The notes under the pieces were generated by a model. That model searched no databases. It saw only the letters and a program-made list of their open reading frames with translations, and was not told where the DNA came from. A program made the position numbers and the translations under genes. From positions 1-15,383 of the forward strand of contig JALGVQ010000171.1 in the NCBI GenBank assembly GCA_025774615.1: DNA of 15,383 nt, in the 5' to 3' direction. Position 1 is the first letter of the stretch. Each line of letters opens with the position of its first letter. The stretch comes from a bacterium (GTDB taxonomy: Bacteria; Blakebacterota; Blakebacteria; Blakebacterales; Blakebacteraceae). Positions 5,733 to 15,383 of this stretch are shown here, piece by piece.

Positions 5733-6828
5733 ATGGGTGGAAAGAACCTGATACTGTTCGGGGTGTTCGGAATGATGCTGCTGGCGATAGCGTGCTCCCA
5801 GCAGCTCCGTCCGGTCCCGGCTCAAACATTTTCCGGGGTACAGAACGTGTCACTGAATGAACTGACTCCTGATGAAGCACGTGTGATCATCGATAAGGGC
5901 ACCGAGATGCCCTTCACCAATGAGTTCCATGATCACCATGAAGAGGGAACCTATATCTGCAAGCAGTGCGATGCGCCCCTCTACTTCTCCACCGACAAGT
6001 TCGTCTCCGTTCCATGATCACCATGAAGAGGGAACCTATATCTGCAAGCAGTGCGATGCGCCCCTCTACTTCTCCACCGACAAGTTCGTCTCCGATTGCG
6101 GATGGCCGAGTTTTGATGATGAGATCGATGGCGCCGTCCTCAGAGTTCCCGATGCCGACGGCATGCGAACAGAGATCATCTGCGCCACCTGCGGTGGTCA
6201 CCTCGGACATGTATTCCTGGGAGAAGGGCTCACACAGAAGGATACCCGACACTGCGTCAACTCGATCTCAATGAAGTTCATCCCTGCGGGGCAGGAACTG
6301 CCTTCCCTGGTGCAGACGGCCTCGTCCGCTTCACAGGAGGTCACGAATCAGACGGCCTACTTCGCCGGTGGCTGCTTCTGGGGGACCGAGCATCTGGTCG
6401 AAGCCCTCGATGGTGTGATCTCGGTGCGGTCGGGGTATATGGGTGGCCGCAAGGACGATCCCACCTATGAGGAGATCTGCACCGGTCGGACCGGTCACGC
6501 GGAAACTGTCGAGGTGATCTTCGATCCTTCGAAAACGGATTACCGGACGGTGGCGAAATACTTCTTCGAGATCCATGATCCGACCCAACAGGATCGGCAG
6601 GGCCCCGATGTGGGTTCACAGTATCGCTCCGCTGTTTTCTACGTTGATACGGAACAGAGAGACACGACCGAAGAATTGATACAGATCCTCAAGGGCAATG
6701 GCTATGACGTCGTGACCGAGGTCGAACCGGCCGACATCTTCTGGCCGGCCGAGGAGTATCACCAGGATTACTATGCGAACAACGGCAATCGGCCATACTG
6801 CCACTTCTATGTGAAACGGTTCAGGTGA
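5733..6828 (+). pseudogene. msrBA: Bifunctional methionine sulfoxide reductase MsrB-MsrA lipoprotein, frameshifted by an 85-bp duplication
   Basis: Repairs both R- and S-methionine sulfoxide in envelope proteins. The start has a lipobox LAIAC (Cys21). As read, translation stops at 6017 after 94 residues; the remainder stays open in another frame from 5920 to 6828. The break is caused by an exact 85-bp tandem duplication (5924-6008 and 6009-6093). Removing one copy restores a 336-residue protein. In that protein the MsrB domain has zinc Cys pairs CKQC (76, 79) and CATC (122, 125), CGWPSF, GGHLGHVF and catalytic Cys146 in RHCVNS. The MsrA domain follows with GGCFWG (Cys185), GYMGG, GHAETVEV and EYHQDYY. 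All key residues of both domains are intact, so the lesion is recent or an assembly error. Domain identity is secure; whether the gene is truly broken is open. Confidence 0.88.
5924..6093. repeat. Perfect 85-bp tandem duplication inside msrBA
   Basis: Copy 1 is 5924-6008 and copy 2 is 6009-6093, with no differences between them. Both run from GTTCCATGATCACC to AAGTTCGTCTCC. The unit is not a multiple of three, so it shifts the reading frame within the MsrB domain. Confidence 0.97.
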
Positions 6829-10324: not shown

Positions 10325-12616
10325 CTACCCCGAATTGATCACCGAGATCGGATCGATGCGGGAAGCCCGGAATGCCGGCAGGAAGCCGGCAACGACCGAC
10401 AGCAGGGCCAGTACCGATACCATGACACCCAGGGTGATCGGGTCGGTCGGGCTGACTCCGTAGAGCATGGACATCCCGATCTCACGGGTCTGCTGACTGA
10501 CAGAGTACGAGACGACACCGTAGATTCCCAGAGAAGCCAAGAAGAGCGCGATCAGCGCGAATGCGCTGATGAGAAGCAGGATGAACCGTCGCGGGGATAC
10601 TGCCAGGTCGACGATTTCCTCCAGGGGCCGGAAGTCGCCGGTCGGCAGGGTGGAATCGATTCCTCTCAGGGTCGCTGAGATATGCGGTGCAATCGACTCG
10701 AGGGGCTGCTCCGACCTGATCACCAGATCGAGCGCGAAACCATCGCCACCCTGCTGCATGATCGGCAGGTACATCTCAAGGCCGGAATCCTCTTCGAGGG
10801 AGCTGTGCCGTACATTTGAAACGACACCCACGACCCGTATAGGTCCCCCCAGCAGGATGTTCTGACCGATGGGCTCATCGTCGGGCCACCCCAGCAGGAT
10901 GTTCTGACCGATGGGCTCATCGTCGGGCCACAATCGTCGGGCCATGTTTTCATTGATGATGACGACTGCGTCGGTTTCGGCTGTGTCGTGGATCGTGAAG
11001 TCACGACCGGATATCACTGGTATCTGCATCGTCCCGATATATCCGCTGTCCACGATCCGCGGGAAGGCGACCGGTGTTTCACCGGGACCATACACCTGGC
11101 CTTCAGCCCTGAGGCCCCAGGCCCGGTTCCGGCCAAGCGGCAATGTGTCGGTCAGGCCTGCTGATTCGATTCCCGGAATGGCTTCTACCTCATCAGTCAA
11201 TCGCTGGAGGTAAGCGTTCCACTCAGCACCACTGCTGAACGGCTGGTTCGTCTCGATTCGCCACGATGCGGCATTTTCCGGTTGAAATCCGAGGTCGACA
11301 TCCATCAGCGTAACGAAACTACGCAGTAACAGTCCTGTTCCGACCAGGAGCAGACACGCCAGGGCGATCTCCGAAACCATCAGTGCCTCTCGTGCCCATC
11401 TCCGGTTCCGTCCCTGACTGGCGCCGCGACTGGAGTCCTTCAGGGATCTGTGTCCATTGGTCCCCGAGATCTGCAGCGCCGGAACGATACCGAAGAGCAG
11501 TCCGGTCGTGATCGCCACGATCAGCGTGAAGAGAAGGGCGGTACCATCGACCGTGACCGCTGCAAGAAGGGGAATGCTGATAGCCTGTGTGCCGGCAACG
11601 GTCGATGTGACAGCATAGGCCAGGAGTATGCCGAGGAGAGCCCCTGAAGAGGAAAGAATGAGGCTTTCTGTCAGTAACTGACGCATCAGCCGGGTCCGGT
11701 TCGCGCCGAGCGCGCTGCGCACCGCCATCTCCGTGCGTCGGGATGAAGCACGGGCCAGCAGCATGTTCGAAAGGTTGGTGCACGTGATCAGGAGAACCAG
11801 TCCAACGGCACATGCCAGCAGCAGCATCGATTTGCGGAATCGTCCGGTGATCTGTTCTGTAAGGTCGGTTGTGAGCGCGTTTAGCCCCCAGCGGGAGGGA
11901 TCGGCCTCACGCAGCTGCCCGTTGATCGATTCGAGTTCTGCCTGGGCGACTTCGATCGTGATCCCGGGCTTGAGACGTCCGATGGCAAAGATCGTGTTGC
12001 CCCAGCCATCTGTCTGGTCGCTGACGGGAAAGGGAGTGAGAAAATCCACCCGGGTTCCGGGCGCGAAGACCGAGCCATAATCGAACCAGTCCGGTAGAAC
12101 TCCTACAACCGAGGCAGGCGACTTGTTGATCGTTATCGTGCGTCCGATGATCTCCCGATCACCATTGTACTGACGATGCCAGAATTCGTGGGTGAGGATG
12201 ACCGCATCAACACGACCCCACACATCCTCCTCCTCGACAAAGTTCCGGCCGAGTTGAGGCTGGATGTCGAGGACCTCAAGGAAATCACGGACCACACCCA
12301 CGCCGACGACATGCTTCGGATCACCCTCACCGGAAAGGATGTAACTGATGTAATCGAAAAAGGCGAAGTAGCCTGTCATCTCTTCGAACGACTGATTCAT
12401 TTCCCGCCAGTCACGGAGGTTCGAAGTCCGCAGGGTCGCAGAGGAGAGCCCGCCCTGGGTGCCGATGTTTGATATCAGAACAAGGCGCGCCGGGTCCCGG
12501 AATGGAAGTGGTCGGTAGAGCAGGGTGTTCACGACGCTGAAGACAGACGTGTTGGCGCCGATCCCCAATCCGATGATCAGTATAGCGATCAGGTAGAAGC
12601 CGAGATTCCGCCGCAT
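10325..12616 (-). CDS. ADOP-type MacB/FtsX permease, probably damaged
   Basis: Orphan permease resembling the acidobacterial duplicated (ADOP) type: two MacB periplasmic domains and two FtsX domains in one chain, normally about 800-850 residues with no ATPase attached. Here 763 residues are read. The first helix (about 5-28), the first FtsX domain (about 265-385) and the middle helix (about 413-435) look intact. Three oddities occur. Family-like residues (DLLRDDVVYAGRT) lie in frame upstream of the ATG, without any ATG/GTG/TTG. A 14-residue unit WPDDEPIGQNILLG is doubled. In the last FtsX domain TREIGMSM joins directly to LYGVSPTDP, skipping about 45 residues including one helix. No ATPase gene is nearby. 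It lies 43 bases after the Ig-like lipoprotein gene and may be cotranscribed with it. Confidence 0.85.
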   Translation of the reverse strand: MRRNLGFYLIAILIIGLGIGANTSVFSVVNTLLYRPLPFRDPARLVLISNIGTQGGLSSATLRTSNLRDWREMNQSFEEMTGYFAFFDYISYILSGEGDPKHVVGVGVVRDFLEVLDIQPQLGRNFVEEEDVWGRVDAVILTHEFWHRQYNGDREIIGRTITINKSPASVVGVLPDWFDYGSVFAPGTRVDFLTPFPVSDQTDGWGNTIFAIGRLKPGITIEVAQAELESINGQLREADPSRWGLNALTTDLTEQITGRFRKSMLLLACAVGLVLLITCTNLSNMLLARASSRRTEMAVRSALGANRTRLMRQLLTESLILSSSGALLGILLAYAVTSTVAGTQAISIPLLAAVTVDGTALLFTLIVAITTGLLFGIVPALQISGTNGHRSLKDSSRGASQGRNRRWAREALMVSEIALACLLLVGTGLLLRSFVTLMDVDLGFQPENAASWRIETNQPFSSGAEWNAYLQRLTDEVEAIPGIESAGLTDTLPLGRNRAWGLRAEGQVYGPGETPVAFPRIVDSGYIGTMQIPVISGRDFTIHDTAETDAVVIINENMARRLWPDDEPIGQNILLGWPDDEPIGQNILLGGPIRVVGVVSNVRHSSLEEDSGLEMYLPIMQQGGDGFALDLVIRSEQPLESIAPHISATLRGIDSTLPTGDFRPLEEIVDLAVSPRRFILLLISAFALIALFLASLGIYGVVSYSVSQQTREIGMSMLYGVSPTDPITLGVMVSVLALLSVVAGFLPAFRASRIDPISVINSG
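10847..10930. repeat. Perfect 42-bp tandem duplication inside the permease gene
   Basis: Copies are 10847-10888 and 10889-10930, identical, and the identity extends one base further. The unit is in frame and repeats 14 residues of the second periplasmic domain. A 12-base piece, ATCGTCGGGCCA, recurs again at 10933-10944, 14 bp after its copy at 10919-10930. Confidence 0.97.
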
Positions 12617-13598: not shown

Positions 13599-14858
13599 AT
13601 GAAAAGAGCACTCTCTGTTACTGCCATGCTGGCGCTCATTGCCCCTGTGACCACCGGGGCACAGGTCGTGAAGCTGGCGGCCGGGGTTCAGGTTGAAATG
13701 GCTGATGGCTCCCCGCTGGAGGTGGGTGAGGTCGGTCACGCAGCGCCTGTCTATCACGATTACGACGGTGACGGTGTCCCTGACCTCGTGGTGGGAGAAT
13801 TCGAGGACGGCGCCTGCCGGATATTCCATAACTATGGGACAGCGACCCGGCCGGTTTTCAGGGACTTCGAATTTTTCCATGCCGGCGGGAAGAAGGCCAC
13901 AGTTCCTCCCGACTGATGCATGGGCTTCGCTCCACAGTTCGTGGACATGAACGGTGACGGTCTCGAGGACATCCTCTCCGGATCGTATGCAGGCGATGCA
14001 ACCCAGCCTGAGGGCCATGAGGGTCATATCGTAGCGGTGACCGACGAGAACGGCGATCCGGCCAGTGAGATCTTCGTGTATTACCGGCAGCCGGACGGCA
14101 CCTTTGCGGATCGGGTCGCGATCGGTATGAGTCATACCCATGCGGCCGCCAGTCCGGTCGACTGGGACGGTGATGGCGATTTCGACATCATCACCGCCTC
14201 ACGGGGCACGAATACCGGGCAGGTAGGGAATATCAACCTGCATGAGAACGTCGGTACACAGAATGCACCGGTACTGGCCACGCAGGTTGTTCTGGTGGGA
14301 CGGGTCGAAGGGCACTTCATCACTTCCGCGGAAGCGTACGACTGGGACGGGGACGGGCTCCTCGATCTGGTCGCCGGTACCGAGTATGGGAAGGTCCTCT
14401 GGTTCAGGAACACCGGTACTGGTGATAACCATTCCTTTGGAGAGGCGGTCATCCTGACAGCGGAGGAAGAGGAAGAAGGTGCCGGAGGTGGGTTGGGAAG
14501 TACCCGCCTTGCGATCTATATCATCGACTGGGATGGTGATGGCGTGCAGGACGTGATCGGCGGGGACTTCTACTACCTGCAGCGTACTGAAGAAGAGATC
14601 CTGGCGGGAGCGACCGCCTCTGAGATCGCCGCCTGGCGTGAGGCAAAGGCAAAACTGGAAGACCTCAACGAGAAGACACAGGCTCTCTACGAGAGTGTCG
14701 ACCTTCGGAGCATGAATGATGAGGAGAGAGAGGAGTTCAACCAGAAGTACGAAGAGATATCGGCACCCTATGCCGAATACCAGACCCTGATCTGGGAGAA
14801 GTACCCGGAGCAGAGCTATCACGGCTTTGTCTGGTTCTTTAAAGGAAAGACGCGCTGA
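13599..14858 (+). CDS. Exported FG-GAP beta-propeller protein with in-frame TGA (candidate selenoprotein)
   Basis: One protein of 419 residues if TGA 13914-13916 is decoded as selenocysteine (residue 106, followed by Cys107). Both halves are in the same frame with no overlap or shift. The first half (105 residues) has a signal peptide ending near TTGAQ and one calcium-binding repeat, DYDGDGVPDLVVG. The second half has no signal peptide and continues with DMNGDGLEDILSG, DWDGDGDFDIITA, DWDGDGLLDLVAG and DWDGDGVQDVIGG, giving five propeller repeats in total. An acidic linker and a charged, probably coiled-coil stretch (about 325-395) precede the C-terminal YHGFVWFFKGKTR. The ATG at 13920 lacks a ribosome site, so a separate second gene is unlikely. 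Function is unknown; a nonsense mutation or sequence error remains possible. The isomerase gene starts 44 bases downstream. Confidence 0.82.
13914..13949 (+). promoter_or_regulatory. Candidate bacterial SECIS element after in-frame TGA
   Basis: TGA 13914-13916 is followed 14 nt later by a stem TCCAC (13931-13935) / GTGGA (13941-13945) with loop AGTTC. CATG (13919-13922) and CATG (13946-13949) can extend the lower stem across an 8-nt one-sided bulge. The loop begins 19 nt after the TGA and has G as its second base, like the fdhF element of E. coli. The stem is short, so chance is not excluded. Confidence 0.5.
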
Positions 14859-14902
14859 GCGGCCATGCTGAGCTGAATGAAACCTGCAACAGGAATGGGT
14901 GG

Positions 14903-15383
14903 ATGGGGCAACTCCCGGTCGGCATAGACAGTTACGGACCGATTCCGCTCGGCCTTGAGCCGCTGGCCCTGCTCGAGTGGGCTCGAGCGCACGGAGCTGA
15001 TGGTGTGCAGTTCTCCGGGATCGAACCTGAGTTCCGACCGAAGATCGACCGTGTGTATCTCGAGGAGATGAGAGAGTACGCACGGGGAGAAGGGATGTAT
15101 ATCGAGTGGGGCGGCGCCCGACACATCCCGCGGGATATGGAGAGCTGGGTAGAGGAAGATATCTTTGATGTGAACCGGAGAGCGGCCGAAGAAGCCGCAA
15201 TCCTCGACACCAGGGTGATCCGTTCCTGCTCGGGAGGGCTGATGCGCTGGGATCCCGCAAATCCCACGACCGAGACCCTCCTCCGGGAAACATCAGAGGC
15301 GCTGAAGGTGCAGCGGTCGATGCTCCGGGACCACGGGGTGATCCTGAGTATCGAACTTCATTTCGAGTTCACCACATTTGAAC
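14903..15383 (+). CDS. Sugar phosphate isomerase/epimerase-like TIM barrel (3' end beyond window)
   Basis: The first 160 residues of a protein that runs off the window. It resembles the xylose-isomerase-like / AP-endonuclease-2 TIM-barrel superfamily. Landmarks are an early strand ending GIDSYGP, then HGADGVQFSG after the first helix, a MYIEWGG strand, a conserved-looking VIRSCSGG strand, and VILSIELHFEFTT, whose Glu and His fit a metal-site strand of this fold. There is no signal peptide, so it is cytoplasmic. The ATG at 14903 has AGGA eight bases upstream. It follows the FG-GAP gene by 44 bases in the same direction and may be cotranscribed. The substrate cannot be told; members act on sugars, inositols or hydroxypyruvate. 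Confidence 0.82.
   Translation, partial: MGQLPVGIDSYGPIPLGLEPLALLEWARAHGADGVQFSGIEPEFRPKIDRVYLEEMREYARGEGMYIEWGGARHIPRDMESWVEEDIFDVNRRAAEEAAILDTRVIRSCSGGLMRWDPANPTTETLLRETSEALKVQRSMLRDHGVILSIELHFEFTTFE

Follow-up and report, generated by a model that had tools for sequence, protein, structure and literature searches.

The stretch of DNA analyzed here (the window; 15,383 nucleotides, contig JALGVQ010000171.1, from a bacterium of the Blakebacterota) carries a gene for a predicted exported FG-GAP propeller protein of 419 residues. The only stops in its frame are a TGA at codon 106 and the terminal TGA (Table 1). A preliminary description of this DNA, made from the letters alone, had proposed that one TGA interrupts an otherwise continuous exported FG-GAP frame and is followed directly by a cysteine codon. 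Both points are borne out: FG-GAP repeats flank codon 106 on either side, and residue 107 is encoded by TGC. The window protein scores 88.6 bits against PF13517 (FG-GAP_3, cut-off 26.9) and 33 bits against PF01839 (FG-GAP, cut-off 22.1). The N-terminus contains a hydrophobic segment in 67 of 82 family members, and the protein is likely exported, judging from its sequence. Reassignment of TGA to an amino acid throughout the genome would also leave the frame open, which is all that speaks for it, but TGA is the stop codon in eight of the nine clear window genes checked, the selenoprotein gene included. We therefore reject recoding as extremely improbable, in keeping with the earlier view that TGA is the normal stop in the neighborhood and that the code is unchanged.

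Table 1 Features of the predicted selenoprotein gene in the window.
Feature	Position	Strand	Remarks
Predicted exported FG-GAP propeller selenoprotein gene	13599..14858	+	419 aa, Sec at residue 106
Probable signal peptide, residues 1-21, MKRALSVTAMLALIAPVTTGA	13599..13661	+	read from sequence
FG-GAP Ca-loop 1 (D54-D62), blade 1	13758..13784	+	
TGA codon, predicted selenocysteine 106	13914..13916	+	142 TGA, 9 TGY homologs, 0 TAA/TAG
TGC, cysteine 107 of the predicted vicinal Sec-Cys pair	13917..13919	+	Cys in 142/142 TGA and 9/9 Cys-Cys members
bSECIS	13929..13947	+	stem 13931-13935/13941-13945 (UCCAC/GUGGA), apical loop 13936-13940 (AGUUC)
FG-GAP Ca-loop 2 (D116-D124), blade 2	13944..13970	+	preceding inner strand comes after Sec-Cys
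FG-GAP Ca-loop 3 (D188-D196), blade 3	14160..14186	+	
FG-GAP Ca-loop 4 (D248-D256), blade 4	14340..14366	+	
FG-GAP Ca-loop 5 (D310-D318), blade 5	14526..14552	+	
Helical hairpin (residues 331-401) within last blade	14589..14801	+	AlphaFold2 model
C-terminal strand, residues 405-414, closing last blade	14811..14840	+	contains conserved GxVW motif
Terminal TGA stop of the selenoprotein gene	14856..14858	+	

The window contains two tandem duplications outside this gene. One, exact and 85 nt long, lies in msrB (5924-6093) and puts an msrB-msrA fusion gene out of frame; it may be real or an assembly slip. The other, of 42 nt (95%), lies at 10842-10925 in a MacB/FtsX-like permease gene and is in frame. 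Elsewhere in the same genome (G000, contig C138), a 615-bp stretch, L067, is 89% identical to the window at about 14792-15383. It spans the end of the selenoprotein gene and the next gene, which encodes a TIM barrel, is cut by the contig end, and may be another copy or derive from a variant strain.

The preliminary description had looked to homologs with Sec-Cys or Cys-Cys at residue 106, and homologs do align at this column. Codon-level verification gave 142 distinct homologs with TGA, each followed by Cys, and nine with Cys-Cys; TAA or TAG occurs at this column in none of the aligned sequences. Planctomycetota, Armatimonadota, and Zixibacteria are among the phyla that contribute TGA-Cys homologs. 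A GTDB genome scan found 53 loci, 11 of which hold 14 gene copies with an in-frame stop at the residue-106 column, all TGA and all followed by Cys. Alignment searches and a hand count of genome listings put the places with exactly one TGA at about 165 (119 in a sample of 392 Planctomycetota genomes, 19 in 291 Armatimonadota-phylum genomes, 24 in 39 Zixibacteria-phylum genomes, and 5 in a spread of relatives that includes the window), with nearly all members coming from metagenome-assembled genomes (MAGs) and related sequences not counting as independent events. Some genomes contain multiple tandem copies of the family gene, and a plasmid search matched generic FG-GAP proteins alone. The 142 exclude one TGA-Arg alignment match and two variants. 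In one of these (L213, genome G830), the pair is reversed to Cys-Sec at about 705-711; in the other (L214, genome G934), a lone Sec without Cys occupies the same place as the pair, at about 718.

The family motif is U-C-[IVMTLQ]-[GS]-x-x-P-[QR]. No variation occurs among 54 members at Sec106, Cys107, the Ca-loop Asp, or two Gly. Near-invariance extends to P112, P50, and H/Y47, the last of these being the blade 1 loop position equivalent to the Sec-Cys pair.

A SECIS-like hairpin after the TGA had also been noted. The window hairpin (13931-13945) has a loop that begins at nucleotide +20 relative to the TGA. When folded by itself and compared with dinucleotide shuffles, the hairpin is unexceptional (z -0.15), and we therefore used a family-wide test; the significance of the hairpin derives from its conservation across the family. 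The family hairpin pairs +13..+19 with +25..+31 in a stem of 5-7 bp, closed by a five-base loop from +20 that mostly reads A-G-N-U-N. In the 142 TGA members, RNA stability over the 45 nt after the TGA exceeds that of synonymous-codon controls (z -1.59 +/- 0.11), whereas the Cys-Cys (CC) members display no excess stability in the same test (+0.67 +/- 0.28). Further downstream of the TGA, excess RNA stability over these controls is absent.

Individual synonymous positions carry the same signal. At +27, a third codon position that faces +17, 140 of 142 TGA members and none of the nine CC members carry G; as a control, 225 of 583 Val/Ala codons further downstream in these genes have a final G. At +16..+18, Pro is encoded by CCA where this codon faces GUN (82 members, A-U) and by CCG where it faces GCN (35 members, G-C), with five G-U wobble pairs (CCG-GU) and five other cases. 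The Fisher p values for these two patterns, 6e-13 and 1e-25, respectively, assume independence among related sequences and therefore exaggerate the significance. When synonymous codons were permuted within columns for 83 members, the observed pairing was reached in 0 of 2000 trials. Published bSECIS limits (loop of 3-9 nt, G in the first two loop positions, spacing of 16-37 nt, MFE <= -7.5; PMC13188914) accommodate 132 of the 142 TGA members, the window included, as well as six of the nine CC forms, so the pass count under these loose limits does not discriminate by itself. The conserved bSECIS, with a synonymous constraint that is lost in CC forms, substantiates the hairpin proposed earlier.

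The genome that contains the window (G000; 324 contigs, 82% complete) encodes all four of the genes, selA, selB, selC, and selD, that the preliminary description had named as worth seeking. The tRNA-Sec gene selC is on contig C184 (66.2 bits; ARAGORN tca), selB on C262 (346 bits, scored with its neighbors in frame), selA on C132 (509 bits), and selD on C273 (351 bits); selD itself carries one in-frame TGA. Among the first-found member genomes, tRNA-Sec, selA, and selD are present in 10 of 10 and selB exceeds the cut-off in 9 of 10. Planctomycete TGA genomes contain tRNA-Sec in 26 of 31 cases and selA in three of the other five; neither tRNA-Sec nor selA was found in two fragmented TGA genomes (G279 and G398). 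Since tRNA-Sec also occurs in 13 of 20 planctomycete genomes without a family match, its presence alone is unspecific, and what carries weight is its absence from the CC clade. Of the nine CC members (L124, L208, L125-L130, and L209), six (L125-L130) make up this clade, with genomes of 7.6-8.3 Mb; tRNA-Sec and selA were each found in none of the six, and in five of them a single contig of nearly genome length carries the CC gene. The genomes of the other three CC members (G255, G533, and G559) retain selA, so the change from Sec to Cys is not always coupled to loss of the machinery.

In a tree built from 82 proteins, including 7 Cys forms, Cys arises at least twice inside Sec. Sec is likely the ancestral state on this sequence evidence, though unproven because the tree was rooted at its midpoint. 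The Sec-less clade L125-L130 has a further Cys-Cys pair (HCCP), located in a later repeat and absent from the Sec forms looked at. Two forms from related genomes (L060 and L210, in G053 and G1051) have Gly-Cys, with Gly replacing Sec, and an extra Cys four residues past the retained one (CMGCC / CMGAC); both genomes retain selA.

At four Zixibacteria-phylum loci (L012 in G066, L314, L315, and L316), selD and tRNA-Sec are clustered with between one and four FG-GAP selenoprotein genes in tandem, and in the planctomycete G433 (L291) the family gene is divergent to selD. No other conserved partner gene emerged from the neighbor survey, which ignored clusters of spurious high-GC frames, and Pfam scans of 20 neighbors revealed no common theme; gene context is thus silent on the substrate.

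These observations bear on whether the TGA is a genuine stop, be it in a pseudogene, through a sequencing error, or between two distinct genes. By itself, the first piece would make a short exported protein, and one base change could create a stop, but 142 homologs share the TGA and never replace it with TAA or TAG, on which ground we reject a pseudogene or sequencing error. The SECIS synonymous constraint that disappears in CC forms, the occurrence of CC forms in Sec-less genomes, and the presence of selD and selC as neighbors likewise argue against a genuine stop, which we consider highly improbable. Comparative genomics instead points to a true selenoprotein belonging to a large family, a reading to which we assign a probability of roughly 95%.

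An AlphaFold2 model computed from a 54-member alignment (pLDDT 85.9, pTM 0.85) has five blades, the helical hairpin, and the C-terminal strand, and places Sec106-Cys107 just before inner strand 112-115 of blade 2. A second AlphaFold2 model, of a Zixibacteria member, contains five inner strands followed by further β domains and a sorting tail; the seven-bladed integrin-type fold appears in neither. The best whole-model matches from VIA-align are the five-bladed GH62/GH43 folds (GH62 5b6s, Z 18.8, rmsd 3.6 over 264), while Foldseek matched integrin and other FG-GAP/propeller chains. A profile search against PDB sequences matched integrins and CRTAC1, covering the FG-GAP repeat part of the protein alone.

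The family resembles integrin alpha-type FG-GAP/FG-GAP_3 proteins (PF01839, PF13517) in its D-x-[DN]-G-D-G-x-x-D Ca loops but differs from integrin alpha propellers in having five predicted blades instead of seven, a helical hairpin in the last blade, and Sec-Cys between repeats 1 and 2. Its likeness to GH43/GH62 glycosidases is one of five-bladed fold only: identity is 5-14% in the rows listed, the family invariants are Sec-Cys and the Ca-loop Asp, and there is no GH43/GH62 Pfam match. PQQ alcohol/methanol dehydrogenases offer an analogy only, as exported propellers with two adjacent Cys-type residues, one of which the family replaces with Sec; no PQQ repeat Pfam match was found among four members. 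The PQQ dehydrogenase propeller is also larger than the five-bladed family propeller.

Comparative genomics supports well a reading in which SelB and tRNA-Sec decode UGA106 as selenocysteine, directed by the bSECIS with its apical loop from +20. The product is predicted to be exported and, as modeled, to adopt a five-bladed FG-GAP propeller fold that bears five Ca-binding-type loops plus a helical hairpin. By analogy with other propellers, Sec106-Cys107 would point toward the mouth of the central channel, where it may cycle between a selenol/thiol and an internal selenenylsulfide and perform redox chemistry on an extracytoplasmic substrate. We favor a redox-active pair over one with a metal-binding or structural role, and put it at close to an even chance.

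The pair of this selenoprotein could alternatively bind or sense a soft metal (Hg, Cu, Cd, or As). Metal-linked catalog families with adjacent Cys-Sec exist (the MerB-like SaoL, HgcA, and MbdU; PMC13188914), Cys-Cys would do the same job in Sec-less genomes, and the multiple tandem gene copies would suit such a role. We nevertheless judge it unlikely, as the family has no invariant His or extra Cys ligands throughout and no recurrent metal-resistance neighbors. FG-GAP propellers are frequently binding modules, and a selenoprotein in which a rigid vicinal ring at the propeller mouth acts mainly as a structural or binding platform, without turnover, is a further alternative. A precedent for it is the vicinal disulfide bridge canonical in bacterial PQQ alcohol dehydrogenases (PMC13384848). 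The retention of costly Sec across divergence and several phyla, however, suggests that selenium chemistry is needed, the Cys form is rare (9 versus 142 verified), and we rate this platform as slightly less probable still than a metal site.

No FG-GAP, VCBS, or propeller selenoprotein is present in the May 2026 catalog of 119 prokaryotic families (PMC13188914), in deep-Sep, or in NCBIfam 20. For the window protein and four relatives, no NCBIfam model exceeded its curated cut-off, barring a T9SS sorting-tail model in one Zixibacteria protein. No prior description of the family was found in the literature searched, a scope that excluded preprints and most subscription papers. The earlier suggestion that FG-GAP propellers are not known as a selenoprotein family holds across these sources.

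Like catalogued bacterial selenoproteins (PMC13188914), the family combines an in-frame UGA, a bSECIS, Sec machinery, and Cys homologs, but it is unlisted, has its own motif, and in our sample occurs far more commonly in the Sec than in the Cys form. Because the family is mostly Sec, searches that start from Cys homologs would tend to miss it, and annotation in which the UGA is taken for a stop would leave its genes truncated or split. The majority of characterized selenoproteins combine a thioredoxin-like fold and a redox motif (PMC13188914); in this family, which occurs in several little-studied phyla, Sec instead belongs to a vicinal Sec-Cys pair carried by an exported propeller. We tentatively suggest, at somewhat less than even odds, that it constitutes a new class of extracytoplasmic selenoenzyme: a Ca-looped five-bladed propeller with a catalytic vicinal Sec-Cys, ancestrally Sec and rarely Cys, overlooked through splitting at UGA, and sufficiently frequent in Planctomycetota and Zixibacteria to contribute to maintaining their Sec trait. 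The family offers a testable target for the extracytoplasmic role of selenium in Planctomycetota and their relatives.
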